Source of the DNA: Brevibacterium sp. ZH18
Lineage (GTDB): Bacteria; Actinomycetota; Actinomycetes; Actinomycetales; Brevibacteriaceae
Reading direction: 5' to 3'
Assembly: GCF_022748595.1 (NCBI RefSeq)
Contig: NZ_JALDSX010000010.1
Location: 1-64,000 of the forward strand
Length of the DNA: 64,000 nucleotides
Part shown: positions 9,959 to 53,648 of the stretch, in pieces
Layout of the letters: every line of letters starts with the position of its first letter
Position numbering within the stretch: the stretch's first letter is position 1
Position numbers and translations under genes: made by a program
Notes under the pieces: model-generated
Told to the model about the DNA's origin: nothing
Database searches by the model: none
Seen by the model: the letters and a program-made list of their open reading frames with translations, nothing else

Positions 9959-9980
9959 ATTCGCGTAACAGTCGGTGAGG

Positions 9981-10975: not shown

Positions 10976-11050
10976 GCGTGTTCTGCTCCTTCATGAAAGT
11001 GTTCGGGAATTCCTCCCGTGCTCGCACAAAGTCTACCAAGCGCGAACGGA

Positions 11051-11134
11051 CGACCCGGCCCACCGTCCGCCGTCCGGACGACCCGGCCCACCGTCCGCCG
11101 TCCGGACGACCCGGCCCACCGTCCGCCGTCCGGA
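11051..11134. repeat. Three tandem copies of a 28-bp unit
   Basis: Three identical 28-bp units (11051-11078, 11079-11106, 11107-11134) sit between the stop of the FAD oxidoreductase gene and purS. The unit is almost entirely G and C with internal CCGTCCG and CGTCCGG half-repeats, so it may slip during replication. With both neighbours on the minus strand, it lies in the oxidoreductase 3' region and the purS upstream region. No unique spacers, so it is not a CRISPR array. Confidence 0.9.
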
Positions 11135-11148
11135 CGTGACTGGCACTG

Positions 11149-12561
11149 TCAGGAGTCGAAGCCCATCCCGACGGCGTCGAGGACCTTGAGCAGCGGACCC
11201 CGCTTACCCTGGTTCTCGTCGGCTCTGATCATCGCATTCGTCGTCATCTGGATACCCAGCCAGGCCACCGGTTCAGGCGGGAACGGCAACGGCAGCTTCC
11301 GCACCATCTCCAACCGGGTCAGCTCGGTCTCCAGCCCGGAGAGCTGGTCGAGCATGACAGTTCCGGCGAAGCGCGATGCCCCCACACCGAGACCGGTGAA
11401 TCCTGCCGCCATCGCGACCTTCTTGCTGTAGGCCGTGGTGAAGAACGGGAAGAATCGTGAACAGGTATCGATCGGTCCGCCCCATTTGTGGCTGAATCGC
11501 AGACCGGTCAGCTGGGGGAAGGTCTCGAAGAAGTGCTCGGCCAGGGTCTCGAACGTCTCGGGACGCTGGTCGTACTTCCATGACACCTGTCGACCGTAGT
11601 GGTAGACGGCGTCCCAGCCGCCGAAGAGGATCCGATTGTCTGCCGAGAGTCGGTAGTAGTGGAATCGGTTGGCACAGTCGCCGATGCCCTGTCGTCCGTC
11701 CCAGCCGATCGCCGCGAGCTGCTGAGCACTCAGCGGTTCGGTCATCAGCGCGTAGTCGTAGACCGGCACAGTGTGCAGGCTGACCCGTTTGAGCAGTGAC
11801 GGGAAGACATTCGTCGCCAAAGCCACGCGCTTGGCCGAGATCGTCGCCGAGTCCCCGGCGCGCTGACCGTCGACCTGCGCCGAGGTTGTGATCCTGACTG
11901 TGGACTTCTGGTCGCTGACATCGGTGACCTTCGTGCCTTCGAAGACCTCGACACCGAGTTCGCGGATGACCCGCAGCAGCTCCCAGCACAGTTTTGCCGG
12001 GTTGACCATGGCGACCTCGCGGGAGTCCCAGAGGGCACCTTTGTACGTCGGGGACTTCACGAGCTGCGCCAGCTCCTGCTGGTCGTAGAAGATGAAGCCG
12101 CTCTCCGGATCGTGGGCCTCACGCAGCGCGGGAACCTGGTAGTCCTCGGTGGCAACGTCGAGTTCACCGGTGCGTTCGAACTCGACATCCATGCCGTATC
12201 GGGCGACGGCGGCTTCGATCTCGTTGAGGTTGTCCAGCCCGAGCTGTGCCAGACGTTCGTTCTCGTCGGGAAGATGGTTCTCACCGTTGTCGTATCCGTG
12301 GGTGAGGCTGGCTGCACAGAAACCGCCGTTGCGTCCCGAAGCGGCCCACCCGATCGTGTTGGCCTCGAGGAGGACGACGTGACGGTCAGGATCGCGCTCC
12401 TTTGCCTGCAGCGCAGTCCACAGTCCTGTGAAACCGCCCCCGACGATGACGAGGTCGGCCTCGAGATCGTGGGTCAGTGGGGGAAGCGGCTCTGGGCGCT
12501 GATCGGAATCGAGCCAGAACGGCACGGTGGAAGCGTCGGCCAACGCGGCGGTGACGTCCAT
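11149..12561 (-). CDS. FAD-dependent amine oxidoreductase, PuuB-like (DAO family)
   Basis: A 470-residue FAD enzyme with the dinucleotide-binding motif VIVGGGFTGLWTA near residue 38 and the SGRNGGFCAASL segment typical of gamma-glutamylputrescine oxidase and related DAO-family enzymes. The C-terminal GFTGLGVGASRFAG closes the FAD site. In this family the usual job is oxidation of a gamma-glutamylated or free amine to an aldehyde, giving ammonia and peroxide. It is the last gene after the Pot transporter, which supports polyamine catabolism. ATG at 12561 is chosen because AAGGAGAAAAGAT precedes it; the frame opens nine codons earlier. Exact substrate is inferred. Confidence 0.8.
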   Translation of the reverse strand: MDVTAALADASTVPFWLDSDQRPEPLPPLTHDLEADLVIVGGGFTGLWTALQAKERDPDRHVVLLEANTIGWAASGRNGGFCAASLTHGYDNGENHLPDENERLAQLGLDNLNEIEAAVARYGMDVEFERTGELDVATEDYQVPALREAHDPESGFIFYDQQELAQLVKSPTYKGALWDSREVAMVNPAKLCWELLRVIRELGVEVFEGTKVTDVSDQKSTVRITTSAQVDGQRAGDSATISAKRVALATNVFPSLLKRVSLHTVPVYDYALMTEPLSAQQLAAIGWDGRQGIGDCANRFHYYRLSADNRILFGGWDAVYHYGRQVSWKYDQRPETFETLAEHFFETFPQLTGLRFSHKWGGPIDTCSRFFPFFTTAYSKKVAMAAGFTGLGVGASRFAGTVMLDQLSGLETELTRLEMVRKLPLPFPPEPVAWLGIQMTTNAMIRADENQGKRGPLLKVLDAVGMGFDS

Positions 12562-12653
12562 ATCTTTTCTCCTTCTGCCAAGTCGCATTCGTGCGCGGCC
12601 TGACGACTTTCGAGTTCTGTCTTGTAACAGTCAGTGCAGAGTTGCGGGGTGAA

Positions 12654-13517
12654 TCAGCCTGCCATCGTCTTGATGATCTCCGTCGAACTTCCACCTGCCT
12701 TGCGCAGCACGAAGCCCACGATGGCCAAGGCCAGGAGGGTGAGGAGGAACATCACGGTCGACATCGCGGCGACCTCAGGTCGCAGTGCGACCCTCACCGC
12801 CGAGAAGATGTAGACCGGCCATGGGGTGTAGCCGGGCTGCTGCACGAAGCTTGAGAGGATCGTGTTGTCGAGGCTGACCGTGAATGACATCAGCGCACCG
12901 GCGAGGATGCCGGGAGCCGCGATCGGCAGGGTGATGTCCTTGAACCGGTTCCACGGGGTCGCACCCAGGTCGGCTGCGGCGTCCTCGAGCTGCGAGTCGA
13001 TGCCCGCAAGCCGGGCGCGGACGATGAACGTCACGATCGCCATGGAGAACATCGAATGCGCAATGATGAGTCGGACCAGACCATTGTTGAGCGGGGTGAT
13101 GCCCCAGTCGACTCCGACGGTGACGAACCAGGGCAGGAACGAGATGCCGTCGACGATCTCAGGAGTGACCAGGGTCAGGCCGAGGATCGCGGTCAGGCCG
13201 AGCGCCCACCATGCGCCCTTCGGTGCCCGGGCCAGAGCCACGCCGCCCAAGGTGCCGAAGAGCGTCGAGACGAGTGCTGCACCCACCGCAGCCTGGAGGC
13301 TCGTGACGATGGAGGAGACGATGATGTCGTTATTGACTCCGCTGATGTAGGCGTCGAAGCCGAAGCCGCGGAAGTTCGCGAGCACCTTGCCCGTGTTGAA
13401 CGAGTACGCGATGATGACCGCGATCGGGATGAACAGGTAGGCGAAGACGAGGACGCCCCAGATGTTGAGGCCGATGTCCGTCGGCGTCCGCCGGGCGAAT
13501 GTGTTCTTCTTCGACAT
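12654..13517 (-). CDS. potC: Spermidine/putrescine ABC transporter permease PotC
   Basis: A 287-residue inner-membrane permease with six predicted helices. The cytoplasmic EDAAADLGATPWNRFKDITLP loop (about 185-205) is the EAA motif that docks on PotA. It starts one base after the potB stop. The next gene, the amine oxidoreductase, follows after 92 bases. Polyamine specificity is inferred from resemblance to PotC and from neighbours; related opine or amino-acid transporters share this architecture. Confidence 0.88.
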   Translation of the reverse strand: MSKKNTFARRTPTDIGLNIWGVLVFAYLFIPIAVIIAYSFNTGKVLANFRGFGFDAYISGVNNDIIVSSIVTSLQAAVGAALVSTLFGTLGGVALARAPKGAWWALGLTAILGLTLVTPEIVDGISFLPWFVTVGVDWGITPLNNGLVRLIIAHSMFSMAIVTFIVRARLAGIDSQLEDAAADLGATPWNRFKDITLPIAAPGILAGALMSFTVSLDNTILSSFVQQPGYTPWPVYIFSAVRVALRPEVAAMSTVMFLLTLLALAIVGFVLRKAGGSSTEIIKTMAG

Positions 13518-13518
13518 C

Positions 13519-14502
13519 TCAGGCCCTTCCGTCTGTCAGCGGCACGCTGTTGAGCTTTGCCGCGATCATCTGTCCGAGCTTAAGCAGCCCGAACCCGATC
13601 CCGACGACCACAAGAGTGGCGAGGATGAGGATCACCGCCATCGCCGCGCCGACCGCCCAGTTCTGAGCGGTATTGAATTGGTTGGCGATGAGCTGGCCGA
13701 CCATCGACCCGCTGGCGCCGCCGAGCACGGTTGCCGTGACGTAGTCGCCGTTGAGCGGGATGAACACGAGCAGGCATCCGGAGACCACACCCGGCATCGC
13801 CATCGGCAGCGTCACACGGAGGAACGTCGTGACCTTGCCCGCGCCGAGGTCGTAGCTGGCTTCGCGTAGCTTCTGGCCCGAGGCATCGATCGCGACGAAG
13901 AGCGGGAGGATCATCAGCGGCAGGTAGTTGTAGACGACGCCGATCTGCACCGCTGAGCGCGTATAGAGGATGTCGAGAGGACCATCGAGCAGTCCCAGTC
14001 CCTGCATCCACTTCGACAGGAATCCGTCGGGGGAGAGCATGATCTGCCATCCGAGGGTGCGGACGAGGAAGTTCGTCCAGAACGGCACCATGACGAGTGC
14101 CAAGGCCAGAGACCGCCTCGCCGGGGAGACCTTGATGGCCAGCCAGTACGAGAACGGCAAGGCGATGATCAGGCACAGGATCGTCCCGACGATGGAGATC
14201 CGCAGGGTTGCGAAGAACGTCGATACGAAGCTTGCCGACATCGCCTCCGGGTAGCGGTCGAAGGACAGGTGGTCGGTGGCCACGGCCGTGAACTCGTCGG
14301 GTTTGTAGCCGAAGCTGTAGAAGATGACGAGAGCGACCGGGATGACGAAGAAGAACAGTGCGTACGCCCAGGTCGGGAACGACATCGCTGAGGCTCCGAA
14401 GAACCGTGCCGACATTCCGCCGGGCTTCACAGGCTTCGAAGACTTCCTTGTCCTCTGTGGTTTCGAATTCTCTGTCTTCTGGGGTGTCGTCTGCGTGCTC
14501 AT
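13519..14502 (-). CDS. potB: Spermidine/putrescine ABC transporter permease PotB
   Basis: A 327-residue permease, longer than usual because of a polar, basic N-terminal stretch of about 45 residues before the first helix. It has six predicted helices and the EAA-type loop REASYDLGAGKVTTFLRVTLP (about 215-235). ATG overlaps the potD stop by four bases, and the stop lies one base from potC, so the permease pair is made with the binding protein. Confidence 0.88.
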   Translation of the reverse strand: MSTQTTPQKTENSKPQRTRKSSKPVKPGGMSARFFGASAMSFPTWAYALFFFVIPVALVIFYSFGYKPDEFTAVATDHLSFDRYPEAMSASFVSTFFATLRISIVGTILCLIIALPFSYWLAIKVSPARRSLALALVMVPFWTNFLVRTLGWQIMLSPDGFLSKWMQGLGLLDGPLDILYTRSAVQIGVVYNYLPLMILPLFVAIDASGQKLREASYDLGAGKVTTFLRVTLPMAMPGVVSGCLLVFIPLNGDYVTATVLGGASGSMVGQLIANQFNTAQNWAVGAAMAVILILATLVVVGIGFGLLKLGQMIAAKLNSVPLTDGRA

Positions 14503-15671
14503 GCTCCGCTCCTCGCTTGCGCATCGGCATAGATCTTCGTGCGGATCTGATCGGCAGGGGTCTGTTTGCTGGGTTCGAGCCGGTCGAGGACCTTCTGTGA
14601 GGGGAAGATGAGTTCCTGCTCGTCGAGGTCAGCCTTGGCTGCGGCTTCAGCCAGTCCCTTGGTGCCGATCGGGTATCCGATGTAGTCGAGCTGCTCGACG
14701 GCGGTCTCCGGGGAGATCATCTGGTTGATGAAGGCATGGGCGGAATCAGGGTGTGGGGCACCCGTCGCGATCGCCCAGCAGTCCATCCACAGATTCGCCG
14801 AAGGCGTCGGGAACACGAACTTCCAGTCATCGGGTTCAGCCGCCTCGGCCAGGCCCTGGCGGGCATCGCCGTTGAATGCCTGAAGCAGTGTGAAGCTGCC
14901 CTGGATCATGCCGGTGGCGACGTTGCCGATGTAGGCCTTAGTGTTCGGTGCCAGTTTGTCGAGAATGATCGTCCTGGCCTCATCGAGCTCCTTCTCGTCC
15001 TGTGTATTCAGGCTGTAGCCCAACGCTGCCAGGGCGATCGCGCTGACCTCCCACGGGTCCTCGAGCAGCGAGGTGGTTCCCGCCGCCTCCTTCTGCGCGG
15101 TGTCGATGAAGTCCTGCCAGCTCGTCATCTTGCGCTTGATCTTCTTCGTGTTGTAGACGAACCCCGTCGTGCCCCAGGCCTTGCAGATGGAGTACTTGTT
15201 GTCAGGATCGAAGTACTGGTTCGTGAAATTCGGGTCCATGTGCTTGAAGTTCGGGATGAGGCTGAGGTCGAGCTCCTGGAGCAGGTCGTGTTTGAGCATC
15301 TGCGGAATGTTCGATCCGGTCGGAACCACGACGTCGTAGCCGGAGGTGCCGCGAGACGTCGAGAGCTTTGCGACGAGTTCCTCGTTCGATCCATACGAGT
15401 CGACCTGGACGAGGACGTCGTACTTCTTCTTGAACGCGTCGATGAGGTCCGGATTGTCGTAGTCGCCCCACGAATAGAGGTTGAGTTTCTTCTCGAGCGT
15501 GCCGTCCGTGGCTGGTGATGCCGCCATCGTCGTATTCCGCCCACAGGCGCTGAGCGCCCCGAGGCCGACGACGCCGAAACCGGCCAGCAGCGCTCGCCGG
15601 CTCAGCAGTGCGGAGGCAGATCTGGGCGCGAGGAAACGCACATCGGGTATCGTCCTGGCCACTTCAGGCAC
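14499..15671 (-). CDS. potD: Polyamine ABC transporter substrate-binding lipoprotein PotD
   Basis: A 390-residue extracytoplasmic binding protein. The N-terminus carries SRRALLAGF, a twin-arginine-like pattern, then a hydrophobic stretch and the lipobox LSAC with Cys43, so it is a lipoprotein possibly exported by Tat. The mature part has the PotD/PotF features NLYSWGDYDNPDLIDAF and FVYNTKKI. The GTG at 15671 overlaps the potA stop by eight bases. Later GTG codons (residues 4 and 11) are alternative starts. It captures polyamines for PotBC; the ligand is inferred. Confidence 0.9.
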   Translation of the reverse strand: MPEVARTIPDVRFLAPRSASALLSRRALLAGFGVVGLGALSACGRNTTMAASPATDGTLEKKLNLYSWGDYDNPDLIDAFKKKYDVLVQVDSYGSNEELVAKLSTSRGTSGYDVVVPTGSNIPQMLKHDLLQELDLSLIPNFKHMDPNFTNQYFDPDNKYSICKAWGTTGFVYNTKKIKRKMTSWQDFIDTAQKEAAGTTSLLEDPWEVSAIALAALGYSLNTQDEKELDEARTIILDKLAPNTKAYIGNVATGMIQGSFTLLQAFNGDARQGLAEAAEPDDWKFVFPTPSANLWMDCWAIATGAPHPDSAHAFINQMISPETAVEQLDYIGYPIGTKGLAEAAAKADLDEQELIFPSQKVLDRLEPSKQTPADQIRTKIYADAQARSGA

Positions 15672-16824
15672 CGCCCTCGAAGCCGTAGACGCTCACGGCG
15701 TCGGCGTCCCAGCTGAGGTCCACATCGGCGCCGTCCGGGAGGATCTCATTGCCCGCCGCCGGCATCCGGGCCAGGATCTCGTCATTGTCGCCGGAGACGA
15801 TCATGTACTGGATCACGTCGCCGAGGAACGACACCGACAGGACCTTCCCGCGGGCCGAGTTCGTACCCGGTTCGGCCTGTGCGGCCGGAGCCACGTGCAT
15901 GCGTTCGGGGCGGATGGCCACCCGCACCTGATCGCCGACGCTCAGGGTGCCGGCCGTCCCCGTCGCCGAGGCGGGCCTGACGTCGAGCGAGGGCGTCTCC
16001 ATCACAGCGTTCGCCGTCTTCAGCCGTGCGGTGCCGCCGTCGGTGGCGGTCACCTCGGCGGGGATGAAGTTCTGCTTGCCGATGAAGCCCGCGACGAACC
16101 CGTTGACGGGGTTCGCATAGATGTCCTCACCGGAGCCGATCTGCTGGATCACGCCGTTGTACATGACGACGATCCGGTCGCTCATCGCCAGCGCCTCGTC
16201 CTGGTCGTGGGTGACGAAGACGAAGGTCGTGTCGAGTCGCGTGTGCAGGCGTTTGAGCTCGAGCTGCATCTCTTCGCGCAGCTTCCGGTCCAGGGCCGAC
16301 ATCGGTTCGTCGAGGAGGAGGACCTGCGGGCGGTTGACCAAGGCGCGGGCCAGGGCGATGCGCTGCTGCTGACCGCCGGAGAGCTGATCGGGTTTGCGCC
16401 CGGCGAAGTCCTCCATCTGAACCAGTGCGAGAACCTCGCGGACCCGGTCGGCGATCTCGGACTTGGGAGTCTTCGACTGCTTGAGGCCGTAGGCGATGTT
16501 GTCGGCGATGTTCATGTGCGGGAACAGCAGGTAGGACTGGAACACGGTGTTGACCGGGCGCCGGTGCGGCGGGAGGCTGACGATGTCCTTGCCCGAGAGC
16601 AGGATCGCGCCGTCGGTGGGGGCCTCGAATCCGGCGATCATCCGCAGCAGTGTGGTCTTGCCGCAGCCTGAGGGGCCGAGGAGTGAGAGGAACTCGCCCT
16701 TGCGCACGGAGAGGTCGAGGCGCTCGATCGCAGTGTTGTCTCCGAAGACCTTCTTCACGCCCTGGATCTCCAGGTGTTCGAGCTGCGGGGGAGCCGTCGT
16801 GTCGGCTGTGGCTGTCGTGGTCAT
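15664..16824 (-). CDS. potA: Spermidine/putrescine ABC transporter ATPase PotA
   Basis: A 386-residue ATPase energising PotBC. Walker A is GPSGCGKTTLL (about residue 52), signature LSGGQQQRIALARAL, Walker B LLLDEPMSALD, switch His in FVTHDQDEAL. A C-terminal TOBE-type regulatory domain fills residues 250-386. The ATG overlaps the amidohydrolase stop by four bases. The operon order is amidohydrolase-potA-potD-potB-potC-oxidoreductase. Confidence 0.92.
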   Translation of the reverse strand: MTTTATADTTAPPQLEHLEIQGVKKVFGDNTAIERLDLSVRKGEFLSLLGPSGCGKTTLLRMIAGFEAPTDGAILLSGKDIVSLPPHRRPVNTVFQSYLLFPHMNIADNIAYGLKQSKTPKSEIADRVREVLALVQMEDFAGRKPDQLSGGQQQRIALARALVNRPQVLLLDEPMSALDRKLREEMQLELKRLHTRLDTTFVFVTHDQDEALAMSDRIVVMYNGVIQQIGSGEDIYANPVNGFVAGFIGKQNFIPAEVTATDGGTARLKTANAVMETPSLDVRPASATGTAGTLSVGDQVRVAIRPERMHVAPAAQAEPGTNSARGKVLSVSFLGDVIQYMIVSGDNDEILARMPAAGNEILPDGADVDLSWDADAVSVYGFEGGA

Positions 16825-18569
16825 GATTGCCTTTCAGCGTGTGTGGCTGGGATCTTCGTGTGGCTGGTGGGTGCGGCCGTGCCGGTGGTTGCGGCCGTGC
16901 CGGTGGTGCAATCTGTGCCGGTTTCGTCGAAGACGATCCGGCCGCCGGCAACGGTCAGGACGGTGCGCACGTCGACGAGGCCCGACGGATCATCGTCGAA
17001 GGGATTCGTGCTTGCCAGCGCGAGATTGGCGACACCGCCGATGCGGATCGCGCCGTTGGCCGAGGAGCGCAGCAGATGCGCGGACCCGGAGGTGTAGGCG
17101 CGCAGCGCCGTGGTCAGGTCGATGGCCTGCTCGGGCAGGAGCGGAGCGGGATCGCCTCCGTCAGGATGCGTGCGATTGACGGCCACATGGATCGCCTGCC
17201 ACGGATCAGCGGTTGACACCGGCCAGTCCGACCCCATCGCCAAGTGGGTGCCCGCCTCGGCGAAGGACTTGAACGGGTAGAGCCATGCAGTGCGCTCATC
17301 GCCGAGGTAGGGAATGTTGAGGTCGATCATCTGCTGGTCGCGGCAGGCCCACAGTGCCTGCAGATTCGCAGTGACTCCGAGCGTCTTGAACCGTGGGACA
17401 TCGACAGGGTCGACGACCTGGACGTGGGCGATGTGGTGTCGCGCGTCGGGGCGGGGACCGCTGCCGGTCTGGTCATTGTCATCGGGTCCGCGTCCGATGG
17501 CTTCGAAGGCGTCGAGTGCGGCCTTGACGGCGGCGTCGCCGATCGCGTGGCAGTGGATGTCGAACCCGGCCGCGTCGAGAGCTTCGAATGACCGGTGCAG
17601 ATGCTCGCGGGTGAAGTAGCTCGTGCCGAAGCCGCCGCATGCGCAGCTGTACTCGGTGCTCATGGCGGCGGTGCGGGATTCGACGATGCCGTCGAGCATG
17701 AACTTCACCGAGGTGGTGCGGAACGAGCCTTCGGTCCGGCGGCGTTCGACGAGTTCGGCGACCTGGACGTCGATGTCCTCGACGTCACGGGGCCACCACA
17801 GGCTGCCGACCACCTCGGCGCGCAGATCCCCTGACTCAGCTGCGCCGACGTACGCGTCGAAGGGGGAGCGGTGCCCGGAGTAGTCGCCGACGATGGCGTC
17901 CATCCAGGCGGTCACGCCGAGCGAGTGCAGGTAGGACTGCCCGGCGAGCAGCCCAGTGGCGATGGCGGCATCGGTGGCCGGCGGGACGTGAGCGGAGATG
18001 ATGTCGATGGCTGATTCGTGCAGACAACCGGCTGGTGATCCGGCCTCGTCCTTCTCGATCACACCGCCGGCCGGGGTAGGTGTGCTCGCATCAAGGCCGG
18101 CGATGGCCATGGCTCTCGAGTTGACCCACGCCGAGTGGTGGTCGGCGCTGAGCAGGATGATGGGCCGTTGCGTACCCAGTTCGTCGAGGAGGCGGGCTCG
18201 GGGTGCTCCGCCGGGGAAGTCGGCCATCGACCAGCCGCCCCCGGTGACCCAGGAGTCCGCGGCGTGCGCGTTCGCAGCGTCCGCATCTGCGGCGAGGTAG
18301 TCCCGGATCGCTGTGAGTGTGGCGTCGAGCCCGTCGGCCCCGCTGACGTCGCAGGCCAGGGATTCCTGCCCGCCGAACGTCGTGTGCACGTGGGCATCGA
18401 CGAACCCCGGCGTGACGAGCGCTCCGGCGGCGCTGATGGTGCGTGCCGCAGGTTCAGCGGCCTCGCCGGTGCCGATGTCTGTGATGATGCCGTCGCGGAT
18501 GCTGATCCGGTTCGCAGGCAGGACTGAGTGACCGTCGAAGATGCTGACGTCGAGAATGTCGAGGTCCAC
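16821..18569 (-). CDS. YtcJ-type metal-dependent amidohydrolase
   Basis: A 582-residue amidohydrolase_3 (YtcJ-like) enzyme. Metal-site signatures are VDAHVHTTFGG (about residue 60), HCHAIGDAAVKAALDAF and HIAHVQVVDP in the middle, and AMGSDWPVSTADPW near 440. Family members hydrolyse N-acyl or N-formyl amines and related amides. Being first in the Pot operon, it may release a free polyamine or amine from an imported conjugate; this is inference. GTG at 18569 is chosen because GGGAGG lies six bases upstream; the frame extends to GTG 18608. It overlaps potA by four bases. Confidence 0.85.
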   Translation of the reverse strand: MDLDILDVSIFDGHSVLPANRISIRDGIITDIGTGEAAEPAARTISAAGALVTPGFVDAHVHTTFGGQESLACDVSGADGLDATLTAIRDYLAADADAANAHAADSWVTGGGWSMADFPGGAPRARLLDELGTQRPIILLSADHHSAWVNSRAMAIAGLDASTPTPAGGVIEKDEAGSPAGCLHESAIDIISAHVPPATDAAIATGLLAGQSYLHSLGVTAWMDAIVGDYSGHRSPFDAYVGAAESGDLRAEVVGSLWWPRDVEDIDVQVAELVERRRTEGSFRTTSVKFMLDGIVESRTAAMSTEYSCACGGFGTSYFTREHLHRSFEALDAAGFDIHCHAIGDAAVKAALDAFEAIGRGPDDNDQTGSGPRPDARHHIAHVQVVDPVDVPRFKTLGVTANLQALWACRDQQMIDLNIPYLGDERTAWLYPFKSFAEAGTHLAMGSDWPVSTADPWQAIHVAVNRTHPDGGDPAPLLPEQAIDLTTALRAYTSGSAHLLRSSANGAIRIGGVANLALASTNPFDDDPSGLVDVRTVLTVAGGRIVFDETGTDCTTGTAATTGTAAPTSHTKIPATHAERQS

Positions 18570-18651
18570 TGATGCCTCCCGACTTCCTTGTCGAAGGTGG
18601 GCGGACACGCGCCGGGCGCGCTCCGCTGGATGTCATTGTAGGTCTGCCGAC

Positions 18652-46126: not shown

Positions 46127-46188
46127 CAGCAACCCTCCGGGCGCTGAGCAACCCCACTGAAGGTTGCTCAGCACCCGGAGGGTTGCTG
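46127..46188. repeat. REP-like palindrome, copy B
   Basis: Arms of 27 bases (46127-46153 and 46162-46188) with a single mismatch and an eight-base loop. Contains the 8-6-8 core AGCAACCC/AGGTTGCT and an outer CAGCAACCCTCCGGG pairing with its complement. It lies between convergent katA and permease genes, where it can also act as a terminator. Confidence 0.8.
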
Positions 46189-46285: not shown

Positions 46286-47896
46286 TCAGTCGTCGATCTC
46301 GTCGAGAAGCTTCTTCTCGTCGATGGCCAACTGCTCCTTGTCGAGGTGCTGCATGAAGTGCTTCTTGCCTCGGGCGTACCAGAGCACGATGCTGAGGACG
46401 AGCACTGCGAGCACTGCGATGGGGGAGTAGTTGAAGGTCGAGATCGTGATCGGCAGAGTCGGTGGCAGCACGAACAGGATGCAGATGAAGATCACCCAGA
46501 CGACGGCGACCCACCCGATGACTCCGCTCCACCGGCCCAGATGCCACGGGCCCGGCTTGAACTTGTCCCCCTTGAGTCGGCGCAGCAGCACGGGCGCAAC
46601 GTAGGCGATGTAGAGCCCGATCACCGCCACACTCGTCACGGCCAGGTAGGCGGTCTCATTGAACAGCGCTGGCACGGTCAGAATCGAGGACAGCACGATG
46701 CACAGCCAGATGGAGTTGGTGGGTGTGCCGGTGCGCGGGTTGACCTTCTTCCAGTATTTGGATCCGGGGATCGCATCGTCGCGTGAGAATGCGTAGCTCA
46801 TCCGCGAGTTCGCCGTCACCGAGGCCATACCGCAGAAGAATTGGGCGCCGCAGACGATGAAGAGCAGGAACTTCGCCATCGTCGGGTTGTTCAGAGCGTC
46901 GAGGAACACCTGAGCGGGAGGCAGGCCGGTTGCGGTGGCGTTGAGAGCGGTGAGCCCTGCCTCGGAACCGTCCTGGATCGCGGCCGTGATCGAGTACAGC
47001 AGGATCCATCCGCCGATGATCGAGATCAGGACGCTCATGACGATGCCCTTGGGGGCTGCGGTCGAAGCGTTCTTCGTCTCCTCGGCCACGTGTGCCGAGG
47101 CATCGTAGCCGGTGTACGTGTACTGGGCCATGAGCAGGCCCATGAGGAAGACGAACGGCATGAACGTAAACCCGGTCTCGTTGTGCCAGGCCGTCATGGT
47201 CCAGCTGAACGACTGGTGCTTTGTGGGCATGATCCACAGTGCGGCGACGATGACGAGCACACCAACGATGTGCCACCAGGCGGAGACTCCGGAGAGCAGG
47301 TTGACCAGGTTGACGCCGAAGGTGTTGAGGAGACCGTGCAGGGTGATGATGACGAGGAACAGGATGAAGGTGTTGAGCGCGGTGGGCACGACGCCGAAGG
47401 TCAGTGCCGCGAAGGCCATCATGGTCGTGGCGGCGCCGTAGTCGATGGCAGCGGTGACAGCCACCTCGCCGAGGAAGTTGAACCATCCGACATACCAGGC
47501 CCAATGCCGTTTGTTGCGTTTGGCCAGACGGCCGGCCCAGAAGTACAGCCCACCCGCTGTGGGGTACTTCGAACAGACTTCGGCCATGGCCAGAGCCACG
47601 CAGAGGACGAAAATACCGACCAGCGGCCACCCGATCGTGATCGCTGCCGGTCCGCCCGATCCCAGCGCAATGCTGTAGGAGGTGATGCAGCCTGCGAGGA
47701 TCGAAATGATGGAGAAGGAGACCGCGAAATTGCCGAAGCCCGACATTCCGCGCTTGAGCTCCTGTTTGTAGCCGAGCTCGGCAAGACTGGCCTCGTCAGC
47801 GCTCAGCGCCGGGGCCTCAGCTTCGTGAGGGCCTGCGCCATCATGCGGCGTCGGCCCGGATGCTGGGTCATTGGGTGGAGAGGATTCATTGCTCAT
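46286..47896 (-). CDS. APC-family amino acid/amine permease
   Basis: A 536-residue permease with about 12 predicted helices. An acidic Pro/Ala-rich N-terminus precedes LGYKQELKRGMSGFGNFAVSF, the opening typical of GABA/choline-type APC (AAT/ACT group) permeases. MAQYTYTGYDASAHVAEET is the conserved middle motif. It diverges from the glutamine-synthetase-like gene of the second amine block and is probably its uptake system. ATG at 47896 or GTG at 47905 could be the start; neither has a strong ribosome site. Confidence 0.85.
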   Translation of the reverse strand: MSNESSPPNDPASGPTPHDGAGPHEAEAPALSADEASLAELGYKQELKRGMSGFGNFAVSFSIISILAGCITSYSIALGSGGPAAITIGWPLVGIFVLCVALAMAEVCSKYPTAGGLYFWAGRLAKRNKRHWAWYVGWFNFLGEVAVTAAIDYGAATTMMAFAALTFGVVPTALNTFILFLVIITLHGLLNTFGVNLVNLLSGVSAWWHIVGVLVIVAALWIMPTKHQSFSWTMTAWHNETGFTFMPFVFLMGLLMAQYTYTGYDASAHVAEETKNASTAAPKGIVMSVLISIIGGWILLYSITAAIQDGSEAGLTALNATATGLPPAQVFLDALNNPTMAKFLLFIVCGAQFFCGMASVTANSRMSYAFSRDDAIPGSKYWKKVNPRTGTPTNSIWLCIVLSSILTVPALFNETAYLAVTSVAVIGLYIAYVAPVLLRRLKGDKFKPGPWHLGRWSGVIGWVAVVWVIFICILFVLPPTLPITISTFNYSPIAVLAVLVLSIVLWYARGKKHFMQHLDKEQLAIDEKKLLDEIDD

Positions 47897-48305
47897 GGAG
47901 AACACCGTTCTTCTCGAAGCGAATACTTCCGCAGTTCCCGCGAACCTGTCCGACCGACTGGATCAGTCGGCTCTGACTGATGGGCATCGGCCCGGCCGTC
48001 ACGGCCGAGTGGGGGCGAGGGACGATATGCGTCCGGAACAGAACACATCCCGGAGCGGATCATCTGCGGCAGGCACGAACCTATCGTGCGTGATGCAGTT
48101 CACAACTCTGTTCTGAAGCTGAGCCTGTCACCGGGCAATTGGTTTGTCAATAGGTATTTTCTTGAACCATAAGGCCGGGTTGCGATGAATTTCGGGTGAG
48201 GTATTGCGCATAAATGGTTCGCTGACATACCTTATGTGGGGAGAGCTCCTGAACCCGCAACGATGCGAACGAATCACCGGTGCGACACTACCGAGAAGAG
48301 GAACC
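47897..48305. other. Divergent control region of the second amine block
   Basis: About 409 bases between permease and ligase genes, with no supported gene. It holds a perfect dyad CCGACTG-GAT-CAGTCGG (47954-47970) and an ATTG-N6-CAAT element near 48138-48153. TTGAACCATAA (about 48162-48172) and TAAATGGTTCG (about 48211-48221) are inverted copies around an AT-richer stretch that should contain the promoters. Confidence 0.5.
47954..47970. promoter_or_regulatory. Candidate operator dyad upstream of permease
   Basis: Seven-base arms CCGACTG and CAGTCGG around GAT, 58-74 bases upstream of the permease start. It could be a site for the FadR-type regulator encoded at the end of the divergent operon; no second copy was found to support this. 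Confidence 0.35.
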
Positions 48306-49670
48306 ATGAGCGTCACTCCATCAGATCTGACACTGGACCAGCTGAAGGCAGAGATCTCTGCCGGCGATGTCGACACGGTGCTCGTCGCCGCCACCGACAT
48401 GCAGGGCCGACTCCAGGGCAAGAGGATCACCGGCAGATTCTTCCTCGACGAGGTGATGGACCACGGCACCGAAGGCTGCAATTACCTCATGGCCGCTGAC
48501 GTCGAGATGAACACCGTCGACGGCTACGAACTCACCTCGTGGGAACGCGGATACGGCGACTTCATGTTCGTGCCCGACTATTCGACGCTGCGTCGCATCC
48601 CCTGGCATCCCTCGACGGTCATGGTCCAGTGCGACCTCGCCTTCCTCGACGGGTCACCGCTGAGCGTCTCGCCCCGGCAGGTGCTCAAGGCTCAGCTGGA
48701 ACGACTCGAGAAGCTCGGATACTCGCCGATCGGCGCGACCGAGCTCGAGTTCGCCCTCTACAACACTGGCTACCGCGAGGCGATGGCAAACGACTACCGC
48801 AACCTCGAGGCAGCGAGCACCTACAACATCGACTACTCCCTCTTCGGCACCGGCCAGGTCGAAGGCTACCTGCGTCGCCTGCGCAATGAGATGGACGCCG
48901 CCGGTCTCTACACGGAGAGCGCGAAGGGAGAATGCAATCTTGGTCAGCTCGAAGTCGGCTTCCGCTACACCGACATGCTCGCCACCTGCGACAACCACGT
49001 CGTGTACAAACTCGGTGCGAAGGAGATCGCGGACCAAGAGGGCAAGTCGGTGACCTTCATGGCCAAGCCCAACGACCGCGAAGGCAGCTCCTGCCACATC
49101 CACATGAGCCTCAACGATGCCCAGGGTGCACCCGTGTTCTCGACCGGCCACGGAAGTGAGATGTCAGAGACGATGAAGCACTTCGTCGCCGGAGTCGTGG
49201 CCACCCAGCACGACTTCACCTACCTCTACGCACCGAATGTGAACTCGTACAAGCGCTTCGCCGACGGCTCCTTCGCTCCCACCGCAGTCGGTTGGGGTTG
49301 GGACAATCGGACCTGCGCCGTGCGTATCGTCGGGCACGGACCTGGGCTGCGCTTCGAACAGCGCGTTCCCGGCGCCGACGCGAATCCCTACATCGCGGCC
49401 GCCGCCCTCATCGCGGCGGGAATCCACGGCATCGAGAACGAACTCGAACTGCCCGAGCCCTTGGCCGGCAACGCCTACACCCAAGACGTGCCGAATATCC
49501 CGCGCCGCCTCCACGACGCAGTGGCCGCGTTCTCCTCCTCCGAGGTTGCGCGCCAGGCCTTCGGCGACGAAGTCGTCGACCACTACGTCCACGCCGGAGA
49601 AGTCGAGATGGCCGCCTTCGACGCTGCAGTCACCGATTGGGAGGTCCGGCGTGGCTTCGAACGACTCTGA
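48306..49670 (+). CDS. Glutamine-synthetase-like gamma-glutamyl-amine ligase
   Basis: A 454-residue member of the GlnA family that is not a housekeeping glutamine synthetase: the N-terminal beta-grasp domain (VLVAATDMQGRLQGKR, about 22-37) is followed by a catalytic domain with GATELEFALYN, ESAKGECNLGQLEV, SCHIHMSLND and NRTCAVRIVG. This matches the PuuA/GlnA3/GlnA4 group, which joins glutamate to polyamines or ethanolamine using ATP. The next gene hydrolyses such products, supporting the role. ATG at 48306 follows GAGAAGAGGAACC. Substrate not decidable from sequence. Confidence 0.85.
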   Translation: MSVTPSDLTLDQLKAEISAGDVDTVLVAATDMQGRLQGKRITGRFFLDEVMDHGTEGCNYLMAADVEMNTVDGYELTSWERGYGDFMFVPDYSTLRRIPWHPSTVMVQCDLAFLDGSPLSVSPRQVLKAQLERLEKLGYSPIGATELEFALYNTGYREAMANDYRNLEAASTYNIDYSLFGTGQVEGYLRRLRNEMDAAGLYTESAKGECNLGQLEVGFRYTDMLATCDNHVVYKLGAKEIADQEGKSVTFMAKPNDREGSSCHIHMSLNDAQGAPVFSTGHGSEMSETMKHFVAGVVATQHDFTYLYAPNVNSYKRFADGSFAPTAVGWGWDNRTCAVRIVGHGPGLRFEQRVPGADANPYIAAAALIAAGIHGIENELELPEPLAGNAYTQDVPNIPRRLHDAVAAFSSSEVARQAFGDEVVDHYVHAGEVEMAAFDAAVTDWEVRRGFERL

Positions 49671-50511
49671 GGCACCCTCGCACGAAGACCTCGAAACGAG
49701 CACGCGGCCTGTCGCTGAAGCATCAGGCCGCCGGCCTCTCATCGGCCTGCCCACGTATTACGGCCGCGGACAGTTCGGTGTGTGGGACCGCGACTCCGCG
49801 TTCCTGCCCAGCGTCTACGTCACCGCGGTGACGCGGGCCGGCGGTCGCGTCGTCCTTCTGCCGCCCGAAGATCCGTGGACCGCGGCCGAGGTGGCCGAAC
49901 TCGACGGCATCGTCCTGACCGGGGGAGATGACGTCGACCCTGCGCTCTACGGTGCCGAACTCGGGCCGAAGACCCAGACCCCGAACACACGCCGCGATGC
50001 CTTCGAGACCAGCCTCTACCGGCATGCGCGCATCACCGGTGTCCCGGTCTTCGCCATCTGCCGCGGCGCCCAGATCGTCAACACCGTCCATGGCGGAACA
50101 CTGCATCAGCACCTGCCCGAGGTCGGCGGCTTCGGCGCGCATGAGGCGGAGAAGAAGGACGAATTCGCCGAGGTGGCTGTGACCACCGCACCGGACACCG
50201 CCGTGTCCGCGCTGATCGGATCCGGAACCACGGTCAGATGCCATCACCACCAGGCGATCGACCGCCTCGGCGGGGGCCTGGTCGTCAGTGCCCGATCGGC
50301 CGAGGACGGCTGCATCGAAGCGCTGGAAGCGCCGGACGGGTCGATGTTCGCGGTGCAGTGGCACCCGGAGGAGACCCTCGACGATCTGCGCCTGTTCGCC
50401 GGCATCGTCGAGGCCGCGACCAGACGTGCCGAATCGCGGCATGCGACCACAACGTCTGCGACAACGACCACACAGCACACACCCGAGACGACTATGGAGG
50501 CCGGCCGATGA
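49651..50511 (+). CDS. Gamma-glutamyl hydrolase, PuuD-like class I amidotransferase
   Basis: A 286-residue C26-type hydrolase. [15 protein letters not shown], nucleophile Cys in [15 protein letters not shown] and the His-Glu pair in VQWHPEE are all present. In the Puu pathway it releases glutamate from gamma-glutamyl-GABA; here it would free the end product. GTG at 49651 is chosen for the GGGAGG six bases upstream, making a 20-base overlap with the ligase gene. The C-terminal 25 residues are a Thr-rich tail. ATGA overlap with the next dehydrogenase. Confidence 0.87.
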
Positions 50512-51860
50512 CCGACGTACTCAACCCCGCGACCGAGGAACGCGTCGCCACCGTCGACGCGCACAGCGTCGACTCGACGCGTGATGCGATCGGCCGCGCC
50601 GCCGACGCCTTCCCCGCCTGGCGCGCCATGGCTCCGGGCCAGCGTGCCGAGCTTCTGCGCTCCTTCGCCCGCGCGGTCGAGGGCGACATCGAGTACCTCG
50701 CGCAGCTCGAAGTCGCCGAAGCCGGGCACACGATCTCCAACGCCCGTGGCGAAGCCGGCAACGTCCGCGACGTCCTCAACTACTACGCGGGCGGCGTCGA
50801 GCGCCACCTCGGCGATCAGATTCCCGTCGCCGGCGGCGTCGACATCACCTTCCACGAACCCCTCGGAGTCGTCGGCATCATCGTGCCGTGGAACTTCCCG
50901 ATGCCCATCGCCGGGTGGGGGTTCGTGCCCGCGCTCGCCGCAGGCAACACCGTGGTCCTCAAACCCGCTGAGCTGACGCCGCTGACGGCGATCCGCCTCG
51001 GCGAGCTGGCCTTGGAAGCGGGTATCCCGCAGGACGTGTTCCAAGTCGTCCCGGGCAAGGGATCGGTCGTCGGGCAGACGTTCACCGACGACCCGCGGGT
51101 CGCGAAGATCGTGTTCACCGGCTCGACCGCGGTGGGCGAGACGATCTTGGCCGATGCCGCGAAGTCGATGAAGCGCACGACCCTCGAGCTGGGCGGGAAG
51201 TCGGCGAACATCGTCTTCGATGACGCCGATCTCGAACTGGCAGCGGCGACTGCACCCTACGGAGTCTTCGACAACGCAGGTCAGGACTGCTGCGCACGTT
51301 CGCGCATCCTCGTCCACGACTCGGTCTTCGACCGATTCATGGAACTCCTCGAACCCGCGGTCGCCGGGGTGGTCGTCACGGACCCCAGCCTCGAGACCGC
51401 GGAGATGGGACCGCTCATCTCCGCCGGACACCTGGAGAGCGTGGCCGGATTCCTCGACGGCGTCGACGTCGCGTTCACCGGCAGCGCCCCCAGCGGTGCC
51501 GGATACTGGATGGCGCCGACGGTCGTTCTGCCGAAGTCGCCCTCCGACCGCATTGTCACCGACGAGGTGTTCGGACCCGTGGTCACCGTGCAGCGCTTCC
51601 GTGACGAGGCCGAGGCGATCACGATGGCCAACGACTCGCCCTATGGGCTCTCCGGTTCGATCTGGACCCGCGATGTCGGCCGGGGCTTGAGGGTCGCCCG
51701 CGGCGTCGACTCCGGCGCCCTGTCCCTGAACTCGCACTCTGCAGTCCGGTATTCGACTCCGTTCGGCGGGTTCAAACGCTCCGGCATCGGCCGCGAGCTC
51801 GGCCCGCATGCGATGGACTCGTTCACGGAGACGAAGAACCTCTTCATCGCCACCGACTGA
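50508..51860 (+). CDS. Aldehyde dehydrogenase of the gamma-glutamylation block
   Basis: A 450-residue aldehyde dehydrogenase with catalytic Glu in [12 protein letters not shown] and Cys in [10 protein letters not shown]. It is slightly shorter than typical (about 480), mostly at the N-terminus. It would oxidise the gamma-glutamyl aldehyde to the acid that the hydrolase cleaves. ATG at 50508 overlaps the hydrolase stop by four bases and has GGAGG upstream. Confidence 0.88.
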
Positions 51861-51922
51861 GCTGCACCCGGTGGAGCGGTGCCCGACACACTCAGCGGGG
51901 AAATCGCTCCGCGACGCGGATC

Positions 51923-51974
51923 AGTGGTCGATTTGTGGTGAATTTCGCCGGGAATTCGACACAAATCGACCACT
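51923..51974. promoter_or_regulatory. Large inverted repeat between aldehyde dehydrogenase and SDR genes
   Basis: Perfect 14-base arms (51923-51936 with 51961-51974) enclose a second small GAATT/AATTC stem. The 163-base gap holding it is the only real gap inside this operon. It may be an attenuator-like hairpin reducing downstream expression, or an operator; there is no T-run. Confidence 0.5.
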
Positions 51975-52023
51975 CCAGCCGATACCAATTGCCCCACAGC
52001 TCTTATGACGAAGGAGATATGAC

Positions 52024-52836
52024 ATGAACTCACCACAGATGTCAGACACGTACGACTCGGCCCAGATCGTGTGCCGCCGCCTGCCCGGCCGGACCGCCGT
52101 GGTCACAGGCGGTGCTAGCGGCATCGGCCTCGCGACGGCCAAACGGCTCGCCTCGGAAGGGGCCAATGTCGTCATCGCCGACACGAACGCGGATTCCGGT
52201 GCGATCGCCGCCGAGGCGGTCGGGGGCCTCTTCGTGTCCACCGACGTCACCGATCCGGCCCAGGTCGACTCCCTGTTCCAGACCGCCTTCGACACCTACG
52301 GCAGCGTCGACGTCGCGTTCAACAACGCGGGAGTCTCCCCACCGGCGGACGCCTCGATCACGGAGACCAGCCTCGACGTGTGGCGCAAGGTCCAGGACAT
52401 CAACCTGACGTCGGTGTACCTGTGCTCGAAGGCGGCGCTGACGCACATGCGCAAGCAGGGCCGCGGCTCGATCATCAACACGGCCTCGTTCGTGGCGCTC
52501 ATGGGATCGGCGACCTCGCAGATCTCGTACACGGCGTCGAAGGGCGGAGTGCTCGCGATGACGCGTGAGCTCGGCGTGGAGTTCGCGAAGGAGGGCATTC
52601 GCGTCAACGCGCTGTGCCCGGGGCCAGTGAACACCGAACTGCTGCGCGAACTGTTCGCCAAGGATCCGGAGATGGCGGCCAGGCGTCTGGTGCACGTGCC
52701 GATGGGCCGCTTCGCCGACGCTTCTGAGATGGCTGCAGCCGTGGCTTTCCTCGCCAGCGACGACGCATCGTTCGTCACCGCCCAGTCGTTCACCGTCGAC
52801 GGTGGCCTGACCAACGCCTACACGACCCCGCTGTGA
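52024..52836 (+). CDS. Short-chain dehydrogenase/reductase
   Basis: A 270-residue classical SDR. Cofactor motif GGASGIGLATAKRL (about 23-36), NNAG near 100, catalytic Ser in NTASFVALMG and Tyr-Lys in ISYTASKGG. Residues after DGG at the C-terminus end the fold as usual. In this operon it could oxidise an alcohol group on the gamma-glutamylated substrate to the aldehyde. ATG at 52024 follows AAGGAGATATG. Its stop overlaps the regulator start (GTGA). Confidence 0.87.
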   Translation: MNSPQMSDTYDSAQIVCRRLPGRTAVVTGGASGIGLATAKRLASEGANVVIADTNADSGAIAAEAVGGLFVSTDVTDPAQVDSLFQTAFDTYGSVDVAFNNAGVSPPADASITETSLDVWRKVQDINLTSVYLCSKAALTHMRKQGRGSIINTASFVALMGSATSQISYTASKGGVLAMTRELGVEFAKEGIRVNALCPGPVNTELLRELFAKDPEMAARRLVHVPMGRFADASEMAAAVAFLASDDASFVTAQSFTVDGGLTNAYTTPL

Positions 52837-53648
52837 GTGAGGGAACCGAAGCGTTCGCCCCCAGCGGCCAGGTGACTGCGCTGCGGGCGATCGCTCCGGC
52901 GCGTTCGGGCAACATCTTCGAGGAGACGATCGAATGCCTGCTCCAGATCGTGCGCCTTGGCATCATCCCGCCCGGGCAGCGCTTCCCGCCCGAACGTGAG
53001 CTCGCCGAACAGCTCGGCATCTCCCGGGCGACCCTGCGCGAAGCGATCTCCGAACTGCAGAGCGCCGGATGGGTCAACGTCCGCCGAGGTCGGGGCGGAG
53101 GAACGTTTGTCTCGCGAGCTCCGGCGACCGGTGCCCTCCACGGTGCAGCCGCGGGCGGGCACGTGGGCTCATCGACCGCCTCGGGTCGTGCCTCGGGTGG
53201 CGCGTCCGGTTCCGACGCCGGGTTCTCCGCCGTCGAGGTCGAGGACACTCTGACCTGGCGGCGCATCATCGAGATGGGCGTCGCCGAGGTGGCAGCCGGG
53301 CAGGATCTCACCGCTCCCCAACGCGGTCAGCTGGTGGCGGCGATGGAGGCGAGCCGACAGTCGGACATGGCCGGGTATCGGCGCCTGGATTCCCAACTGC
53401 ATCTGACCTGGGCGCAGGTCACAGGATCGCCCAGTCTGGTGCGCTCGATGGTCGAGAGTCGGACCCGGGCGAACAAACTGCTTGAGCGGATCCCGATGAT
53501 CGAACCCAACCTCGTCCACTCCCACGAGCAGCATCAGCGGATCCACACCGCGATCCTCGCCGGAGACCCTGACGCGGCGCGCGCGGCGATGGCCGAGCAT
53601 CTCGACGGCACCGCCTCGCTGCTGCGCGGATTCCTCGCAGAGCCGTAA
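52833..53648 (+). CDS. FadR-subfamily GntR regulator
   Basis: A 271-residue regulator. Winged helix at about 30-90 (FPPERELAEQLGISRATLREAI is the recognition region) and a C-terminal FCD ligand-binding domain (about 130-265; HEQHQRIHTAILAGD carries metal-binding-type His). A Gly/Ser/Ala-rich insert of about 30 residues separates the domains. GTG start overlaps the SDR stop by four bases, so it is coexpressed with and likely represses this operon. Confidence 0.88.
   Translation: MSEGTEAFAPSGQVTALRAIAPARSGNIFEETIECLLQIVRLGIIPPGQRFPPERELAEQLGISRATLREAISELQSAGWVNVRRGRGGGTFVSRAPATGALHGAAAGGHVGSSTASGRASGGASGSDAGFSAVEVEDTLTWRRIIEMGVAEVAAGQDLTAPQRGQLVAAMEASRQSDMAGYRRLDSQLHLTWAQVTGSPSLVRSMVESRTRANKLLERIPMIEPNLVHSHEQHQRIHTAILAGDPDAARAAMAEHLDGTASLLRGFLAEP

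Follow-up and report, generated by a model that had tools for sequence, protein, structure and literature searches.

A GlnA4-type gamma-glutamylation operon of Brevibacterium sp. ZH18 with a probable role in ethanolamine catabolism

A six-gene cluster of Brevibacterium sp. ZH18 combines a gamma-glutamyl ligase with a short-chain dehydrogenase (SDR) and contains no PuuB-type FAD oxidase, which raises the question of the compound that it degrades. The cluster lies in a stretch of 64 000 nucleotides of contig NZ_JALDSX010000010.1 (assembly GCF_022748595.1), the whole of which is called the window here. The initial annotation had grouped a permease, a ligase, a hydrolase, an aldehyde dehydrogenase (ALDH), an SDR and a FadR regulator, and all six are recovered with clear family matches in a profile search of the window. 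The APC-superfamily permease gene (46286..47905, minus strand; Pfam AA_permease_2, TIGR00907/2A0304 type; start at GTG 47905 or ATG 47896) is divergent from the ligase gene, with 400 nt between them. The plus strand carries, in order, a GlnA4-type gamma-glutamyl ligase of 454 amino acids, a probable gamma-glutamylethanolamide synthetase (48306..49670; Pfam Gln-synt_C); a Peptidase C26 gamma-glutamyl hydrolase of the class-I amidotransferase fold, a probable gamma-glutamylglycine hydrolase (49651..50511; PF07722); an ALDH probably converting gamma-glutamylacetaldehyde to gamma-glutamylglycine (50508..51860; Pfam Aldedh); an SDR, probably a gamma-glutamylethanolamide dehydrogenase (52024..52836; NF004713); and a GntR-family, FadR-type (FCD) regulator that is the counterpart of EpuRI (SCO1614) (52833..53648; Pfam GntR and FCD). 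Short overlaps had been thought to join all of these genes; this holds for three of the four plus-strand junctions (ligase/hydrolase, 20 nt; hydrolase/ALDH, 4 nt; SDR/regulator, 4 nt), but the permease is divergent and the ALDH and SDR genes stand 163 nt apart. The gene order is kept in Brevibacterium and the same gene set is widespread in Actinomycetota, so that the arrangement is far beyond chance.

The ALDH–SDR gap, which measures 30–181 nt in ten Brevibacterium relatives, contains an inverted repeat with 22-nt arms (51923..51974), found by an inverted-repeat search. The 14-nt core of its arms occurs exactly only in the two arms themselves, with one further one-mismatch match in the genome, and the hairpin is thus unsupported as a member of a repeat family of this genome. 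Between the permease and ligase genes, an alignment of 11 Brevibacterium intergenic regions delimits a conserved part (48138..48234) that is a candidate promoter/operator. Within it, TGGTTTGTCAAT (48140-48151) and CATACCTTA (48226-48234) are identical in all 11 sequences, and an imperfect dyad is formed by 48152-48170 and 48214-48232. A promoter scan of the divergent region returned no sigma-70-like site.

The identity of the ligase carries most of the argument. It falls inside a GlnA4 clade of 50 rows with a support of 100, and IpuC, PuuA, GlnA3 and GlnA2 are all placed outside this clade. Its identity to the ligase of a Streptomyces locus, L144, is 60%. The comparison of active-site residues with GlnA4 that the initial annotation had called for shows the signature residues to be retained: F323, D176 and E259 occupy the aligned columns of the reported F331, D186 and E269 of GlnA4, where PuuA has Y, V and A and IpuC has W, T and A, and the metal-, ATP- and glutamate-binding columns that were checked are likewise retained. 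This comparison is based on aligned columns because the published GlnA4 numbers fit the L144 ligase only in part: a single offset of -10 accounts for 11 of the 17 residues named, four towards the C-terminus appear to call for about -6, and D81 and D69 have no fit. A genuine glutamine synthetase was also considered and rejected, since E327 and Y179 of GlnA are replaced in the window ligase by F323 and D176, as reported for GlnA4. The whole genome contains three Gln-synt_C genes and no more, with the GlnA1- and GlnA2-type genes located elsewhere, and the two nearest relatives of the ligase with solved structures include 5dm3, which is C. salexigens Csal_0679. By sequence, then, the window ligase is a GlnA4 orthologue carrying the active-site substitutions of GlnA4 itself; S. 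coelicolor GlnA4 is reported to be specific for ethanolamine, with a Km of 0.47 mM.

The company kept by such ligases was surveyed in neighbourhoods selected by the ligase alone. In the phylum sample a ligase match was present in 88 of 296 genomes, and 60 long regions from 56 genomes entered the survey; the remaining ligase genomes, with short loci among L038-L067 or unfetched, lie outside the neighbourhood and permease counts. Near-duplicates (L008, L010, L014, L017, L023, L029, L030, L032, L036, L037), partial loci (L003, L007, L033, L034), the primer-match loci L171-L176 and repeats (L135, L138, L139) were excluded from the counts and the tree. Among the 48 GlnA4-clade loci counted, an SDR is found in 44, an ALDH in 45, a hydrolase in 42 and a regulator in 30, and neither a PuuB/DAO gene within 7 kb nor a P450 is found in any. 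The exceptions are two loci without any partner (L127 and L018), one with the hydrolase only (L099) and one with an aminotransferase and no SDR (L167). The SDR is therefore a regular partner of the GlnA4 clade.

The window SDR scores 456 bits against NF004713 (cut-off 404), and one such SDR per genome was found in each of three genomes. Residues N127, S155, Y169 and K173, together with D53, are invariant in 27 aligned SDRs; we take the former to be the SDR catalytic tetrad and D53 to be a mark of an NAD-type cofactor. The nearest solved SDR is 4wec from M. smegmatis. The evidence suggests that the name '3-oxoacyl-ACP reductase' attached to NF004713/PRK06057 is misleading for this protein.

These features can be arranged into a route in which the operon would serve ethanolamine catabolism, as a source of nitrogen and carbon, via gamma-glutamylation, and we regard this as very probable. 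Ethanolamine imported by the permease would be joined by the GlnA4-type ligase, at the expense of ATP, to the gamma-carboxyl group of glutamate, a reaction that S. coelicolor GlnA4 is reported to carry out in vitro. The SDR, with NAD+, would turn the free alcohol group of gamma-glutamylethanolamide into an aldehyde, the ALDH would convert this to gamma-glutamylglycine and the C26 hydrolase would release glycine and glutamate. Logic argues that oxidation would precede hydrolysis, because the hydrolase would otherwise merely undo the work of the ligase; an amine oxidase would be unneeded because the alcohol carbon and not the amine is oxidized. The FadR-type protein would keep the cluster repressed in the absence of its substrate, as reported for EpuRI. 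The ethanolamine route with an SDR acting on the hydroxyl, as the initial annotation had envisaged, is well supported by the GlnA4 orthology, the partnership with the SDR and the presence of Eat permeases in 17 of the 48 neighbourhoods. Against it may be set that the permease here belongs to a type other than Eat, that the regulator is found in only 30 of 48 loci and that 17 of 48 have neither permease type. In its favour, EutB (PF06751) has no match in this genome, in a search with a positive E. coli control. Mutual avoidance of EutB and the ligase was looked for as independent evidence and proved mild in the class sample, where the two occur together in 15 of 345 genomes, an overlap counted by eye from two listings (odds ratio 0.43, Fisher p 0.013, kinship ignored). 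In the phylum sample, with EutB in 16 and the ligase in 88 of 296 genomes, the two coincide in three (G270, G031, G207) against 4.8 expected, giving no clear exclusion.

The permease is the component that departs from expectation. Its best model is TIGR00907, at 427 bits and below the cut-off of 598, and TIGR00908 (the Eat ethanolamine permease) is absent from its model matches, so that the cluster has no Eat-type permease; by comparison, TIGR00908 was the best model for all 14 Eat-type permeases scanned and exceeded its cut-off in ten. Across the 48 neighbourhoods, 17 carry the Eat type, 14 the window type and none both. An Eat-type permease is not a defining feature of the pathway, because S. 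coelicolor M145 too is reported, in the portion of the literature available to us, to be without an ethanolamine permease. The replacement of Eat by the window type in 14 of 48 loci could instead signal a change of substrate, with the same chemistry acting on a different amino alcohol such as propanolamine, alaninol or an N-methylated ethanolamine, and in Paenarthrobacter aurescens TC1 the isopropylamine clusters do place related SDR, ALDH and amidotransferase genes next to IpuC. We consider this improbable, given that the ligase retains the GlnA4 signature residues and groups with Streptomyces GlnA4 rather than with IpuC. Moreover, the two kinds of permease are found beside related ligases inside a single family (in f7 and in f43), a pattern consistent with an exchange of permease at constant substrate. 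The window permease is thus, judged from its sequence and setting, a probable ethanolamine importer. A bolder and rather unlikely proposal is that the TIGR00907-type proteins are a second, unrecognized class of ethanolamine or amino-alcohol importers that replaces Eat beside GlnA4 across Actinomycetota, and that in Brevibacterium the exchange may even indicate that the entire cassette, with its SDR, has moved to a different amino alcohol.

Two further routes were weighed. A Puu-like polyamine route could draw its amine oxidase from an unlinked DAO-family gene. The initial annotation was right that the cluster has no FAD amine oxidase, but the window does contain a DAO-family oxidase (11149-12588, minus strand), the nearest candidate found, which lies 34 kb from the operon and shares 30% identity with E. 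coli PuuB; DAO-family matches of varying strength number 47 in the genome, and the small number of Gln-synt_C genes also speaks for this route. That oxidase, however, has an ABC transporter and an amidohydrolase as neighbours, and the NCBIfam model that it matches best, an aminophosphonate oxidoreductase, gives a score far below cut-off. The SDR would have no role in such a route, no GlnA4-clade neighbourhood offers a PuuB/DAO gene, and the ligase, outside PuuA's part of the tree, scores 210 bits against the gamma-glutamylputrescine synthetase model NF045547 (cut-off 650), so that it is no PuuA orthologue. Of the two remaining Gln-synt_C genes, one resembles GlnA2, a type described, in the excerpts available, as glutamylating polyamines in S. 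coelicolor. We reject the polyamine route as very improbable. Likewise rejected as very improbable is an alkylamine route of the isopropylamine type without a hydroxylase of its own, even though the ligase, SDR, ALDH and amidotransferase families are common to the Ipu clusters, one Ipu ALDH is 50% identical to that of the window, and a Brevibacterium genome paper (PMC12467314) annotates, in its available part, an 'ipuC' not shown to be this gene. The cluster has no P450 and ferredoxin system, just as the surveyed neighbourhoods have no P450, the IpuC-type ligases form a separate branch that does not include the window ligase, and the SDRs are only 35% identical.

The ethanolamine reading brings the cluster close to SCO1610-SCO1615 of S. 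coelicolor. Published primers for glnA4 (SCO1613), SCO1614 and SCO1612 find sites in L144 with 0 and 0 mismatches in the ligase gene, 2 and 1 in the FadR-type gene and 1 in the ALDH gene; one of the six, 1612up, has no L144 site within three mismatches. SCO1612-1614 are thus equated by primers; the match of the SDR and hydrolase genes to SCO1611 and SCO1615 relies solely on family and position. The ligase is orthologous to GlnA4 by its clade with L144 and its signature residues, and is adjoined by an SCO1611-type SDR (75% identity to L144), an SCO1612-type ALDH (59%) and an SCO1615-type hydrolase (42%); the EpuRI counterpart, whose Streptomyces equivalent is reported as a repressor, shows 43%. 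The two clusters share ligase, ALDH, SDR, FadR-type regulator and C26-type amidotransferase and the same proposed reactions. In the ten Streptomyces loci examined, however, the regulator and hydrolase genes are divergent from the ligase gene, whereas both lie downstream of it in the window, and four of the ten have an Eat/TIGR00908 permease in contrast to the TIGR00907 type here. The full operon logic, which the initial annotation had thought new, had already been proposed, according to the accessible text, by Krysenko et al. (2019; PMC6529630), with SCO1611 yielding gamma-glutamylacetaldehyde, SCO1612 gamma-glutamylglycine and SCO1615 glycine and glutamate; a 2022 review (PMC9397018), as far as available, repeats and tabulates these steps. 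In the portions of these sources at hand, in vitro proof concerns the ligase step only, and the three later ones (SDR, ALDH, hydrolase) are predictions.

What is new is accordingly small: the Brevibacterium member, the permease exchange and the survey with its mycobacterial-type loci. Four of the latter (L090, L091, L161 and L162; family f7/genus g10, inferred to be Mycobacterium) have the same ligase-hydrolase-ALDH-SDR-FadR order as the window, whereas FadR was not detected near two further f7 loci, L163 and L098; their permeases vary, being Eat in L161 and TIGR00907-type in L162 and L091. The role of mycobacterial GlnA4 is called unclear in the available part of a 2025 paper (PMC11841054). 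The cassette that had been proposed in Streptomyces for GlnA4 and ethanolamine is thus a widespread actinobacterial unit, and this opens two points to testing: the SDR, ALDH and hydrolase reactions, for which only predictions were found, and what GlnA4 does in the mycobacterial-type loci.

Other known systems resemble the window in part. Chromohalobacter salexigens and Phaeobacter, in the available text of PMC9397018 and PMC10132767, also combine a glutamine synthetase-like ligase, an ALDH and an amidohydrolase, and that part of the review lists C. salexigens with the same ethanolamine pathway; they use, however, an iron-dependent alcohol dehydrogenase (PF00465) and a formylglutamate amidohydrolase (PF05013), as does Ruegeria, where the window has an SDR and a C26 enzyme, and Phaeobacter, unlike the window, has a TRAP transporter. 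The Ipu cluster of P. aurescens TC1 likewise sets IpuC, an SDR, an ALDH and an amidotransferase side by side, but adds a P450, ferredoxin and ferredoxin reductase, has its ligase on another branch and, in the available text of PMC6776027, places hydrolysis before oxidation. E. coli Puu shares 32% (ligase), 31% (hydrolase) and 37% (ALDH) identity with the window, and has the amine oxidase PuuB, PuuE and the regulator PuuR where the window has an SDR, no PuuE and a FadR-type protein. Set among these systems, the Brevibacterium cluster most likely exemplifies a known pathway and differs from it chiefly in its importer.

The cluster at 46286–53648 comprises a permease gene (46286–47905, minus strand) and, divergent from it, plus-strand genes for a glutamine synthetase-like (GS-like) ligase (48306–49670), a C26 hydrolase (49651–50511), an aldehyde dehydrogenase (ALDH; 50508–51860), an SDR (52024–52836) and a GntR/FCD regulator (52833–53648). 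All six genes listed in the initial annotation were found; its description of them as linked by short overlaps holds for three plus-strand junctions (20, 4 and 4 nt), but the ALDH and SDR genes lie 163 nt apart, with an inverted repeat in the gap, and the permease is divergent. A strong inverted repeat at 46127–46188 (27-nt arms, 96% complementary) separates the catalase and permease genes and is possibly a terminator common to both. Two blocks (48140–48151 and 48226–48234) show no differences among 11 aligned Brevibacterium intergenic regions and are, judged by sequence, a candidate promoter or operator serving the divergent permease and ligase genes. The host genome is 3.8 Mb in size. The closest relatives by ligase are Brevibacterium (84–93% identity); a congeneric genome from a separate sample (G449) has a ligase just 57% identical, and a gene named 'ipuC' is annotated in one Brevibacterium genome (PMC12467314, in the text available). 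A Brevibacterium-like operon (ligase 79% identical) is also present on contig L013, which is assigned to a Salinisphaera MAG and is probably misbinned.

The cluster is real, coherent and well explained as another instance of the known GlnA4 ethanolamine pathway. In the available text of Krysenko et al. (2019; PMC6529630), Streptomyces coelicolor GlnA4 (SCO1613) is reported to form gamma-glutamylethanolamide and to be ethanolamine-specific (Km 0.47 mM), EpuRI (SCO1614) is found to be a repressor, and SCO1611, SCO1612 and SCO1615 have proposed roles as dehydrogenase, ALDH and gamma-glutamylglycine hydrolase, respectively. The review of Krysenko and Wohlleben (2022; PMC9397018) sets out these steps in a table covering C. 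salexigens and S. coelicolor, and the pathway's proteins are reported to increase in Phaeobacter on a phospholipid headgroup, there written 'PE' (PMC10132767); in the available parts of all three sources the reactions assigned to SDR, ALDH and hydrolase are predicted. The initial annotation was right about the chemistry of this route, which matches the published proposal (PMC6529630), but the operon logic that it expected to be new had been proposed in 2019 (PMC6529630) and tabulated in 2022 (PMC9397018).

The window was tied to the published cluster through the published S. coelicolor primers, located in Streptomyces loci. Within L144, the Streptomyces locus taken as a stand-in for SCO1611–SCO1615, both glnA4 primers match the ligase gene exactly, the SCO1614 primers lie in the FadR-type gene (2 and 1 mismatches) and one SCO1612 primer lies in the ALDH gene (1 mismatch); the second SCO1612 primer has no site there at up to 3 mismatches, and the same primers match nine further Streptomyces loci less regularly. 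Since the SCO1614 primers fall in the FadR-type gene, EpuRI is FadR-type and the window regulator is its counterpart. The SDR and hydrolase of L144 were taken as the counterparts of SCO1611 and SCO1615 from their families and their places in the locus. Identity between window and L144 is 75% for the SDR, 60% for the ligase, 59% for the ALDH, 43% for the regulator and 42% for the hydrolase; in all ten Streptomyces loci (L144–L153) the regulator and hydrolase genes are divergent from ligase–ALDH–SDR.

A ligase tree of 104 rows (quick method, SH-aLRT support only, long branches including PuuA placed unsurely according to the tool's warning) puts the window ligase in a 50-row clade (support 100) alongside Streptomyces GlnA4 and mycobacterial-type rows, with IpuC, PuuA, GlnA2 and GlnA3 outside. 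Csal_0679 (5dm3) clusters with a Ruegeria ligase whose gene adjoins an iron alcohol dehydrogenase. The active-site comparison with GlnA4 envisaged earlier bears out the assignment: the window ligase has the GlnA4 residues at three columns, F323, D176 and E259 (E327, Y179 and N264 in GlnA; the D176/Y179 column is one of two published model readings), and these columns are reported to set GlnA4 apart from glutamine synthetase (PMC6529630, available text). D176 and F323 are common to the window, Ruegeria and Rhizobium rows, while E259 is shared by the Streptomyces and mycobacterial-type rows compared and absent from Ruegeria, Rhizobium, IpuC and PuuA. Among the columns checked for metal, glutamate and ATP binding, all but N264/E259 are conserved, and the AlphaFold model (mean pLDDT 88.8) best matches 11zs and 5dm3.

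Loci were fetched by ligase alone, so that their neighbours provide an independent readout. Within 7 kb and above the script's identity limits, the 48 GlnA4-clade loci (7 Brevibacterium-like) have an SDR in 44, an ALDH in 45, a hydrolase in 42 and a regulator in 30, with PuuB/DAO and P450 in none (0/48 each). Outside the clade the counts among 42 loci are SDR 20, ALDH 16, hydrolase 13, P450 6, iron ADH 4 and regulator 2, with no DAO within 7 kb (0/42). Each of the three genomes searched has a single SDR at 69–100% identity, adjoining the ligase, other SDRs being reported at 33–44%. The SDR is a dedicated partner of the ligase, and gene context gives no support to the name '3-oxoacyl-ACP reductase' carried by its family model, NF004713. 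Residues N127, S155, Y169, K173 and D53 are invariant across 27 aligned SDRs; we take the first four to be the SDR tetrad and D53 to be the NAD-preferring acid. The SDR model (AlphaFold, mean pLDDT 82.4) best matches 4wec from M. smegmatis. Loci L022, L024, L026, L027, L031, L035 and L121, from Streptomyces and kin, hold GS-like ligases on a separate branch, with a window-type permease close by and no SDR, ALDH or hydrolase partner detected; they are perhaps a different gamma-glutamylation system.

In four Streptomyces loci (L146, L147, L152 and L153) a permease lies between regulator and hydrolase, and all four exceed the cut-off of TIGR00908, 'ethanolamine permease'. With one Streptomyces Eat-type permease as query, the GlnA4-clade loci divide into 17 with the Eat type, 14 with the window's type and 17 with neither; none of the 48 has both (chance of zero overlap 0.0005, or 0.015 with Brevibacterium-like loci removed, kinship ignored). 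TIGR00908 was the best model for all 14 Eat-type proteins scanned (L155–L157 lay outside the scan), 10 of them over its cut-off. Outside the clade the Eat type occurs in 3 of 42 loci and the window's type in 15, so that the latter is not special to the GlnA4 clade; host families f7 and f43 each contain both types. This distribution supports ethanolamine as the substrate and points to an equivalent role for the window's TIGR00907-type permease and the Eat type. TIGR00907 is, we assume, the amino acid/choline transporter group that includes the yeast choline/ethanolamine permease Hnm1.

In the proposed pathway ethanolamine would be imported and joined to glutamate by the ligase with ATP, giving gamma-glutamylethanolamide as reported for GlnA4; the SDR would oxidize this with NAD+ to the aldehyde, the ALDH would yield gamma-glutamylglycine, and the hydrolase would release glycine and glutamate. 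No EutB was found in the window's genome. Among 345 genomes of the class, 42 have EutB (over cut-off), 186 have the ligase and 15 have both, below the expectation of 22.6 (Fisher p 0.013, kinship ignored).

Several other loci were noted. In the window, a run of minus-strand genes at 11149–18608 combines ABC transporter components (two permeases, an ATPase and a solute-binding protein) with an amidohydrolase and an FAD oxidase of the DAO family that is 30% identical to Escherichia coli PuuB; the run resembles a cluster that takes up and oxidizes an amine or aminophosphonate. An Arthrobacter sp. U41 plasmid typed as conjugative (L128) carries a GlnA4 cassette at 2542–12263 adjoining choline-kinase-family, amidase and inositol-monophosphatase-family genes; a monophosphatase-family gene likewise lies alongside the Ruegeria cassette (L130), hinting at phospholipid headgroup salvage. 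On a Paenarthrobacter sp. YJN-5 plasmid (L167), genes for an ALDH, a class III aminotransferase, in the SDR's place, and a GlnA4-like ligase form two inverted copies with identical protein accessions, perhaps a diamine route. A Rhodococcus opacus plasmid (L168, 1832–10053) has two adjoining GS-like ligase genes, several SDRs and a DUF1116 protein.

Three points remain of interest: the change of permease, an SDR partner present almost throughout the clade, and the recurrence of this cassette in mycobacterial-type genomes; M. tuberculosis Rv2860c–Rv2857c presumably has the same gene order. Conserved surroundings of mycobacterial glnA4 were noted in 2009 (PMC2667176), and the role of GlnA4 in that setting was called unclear in 2025 (PMC11841054), in the portions available. 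The logic of the ethanolamine pathway would demand oxidation ahead of hydrolysis. In the Ipu scheme, as given in the available text of PMC6776027, hydrolysis precedes oxidation; there, unlike in the ethanolamine cassette, a P450 has altered the amine beforehand.
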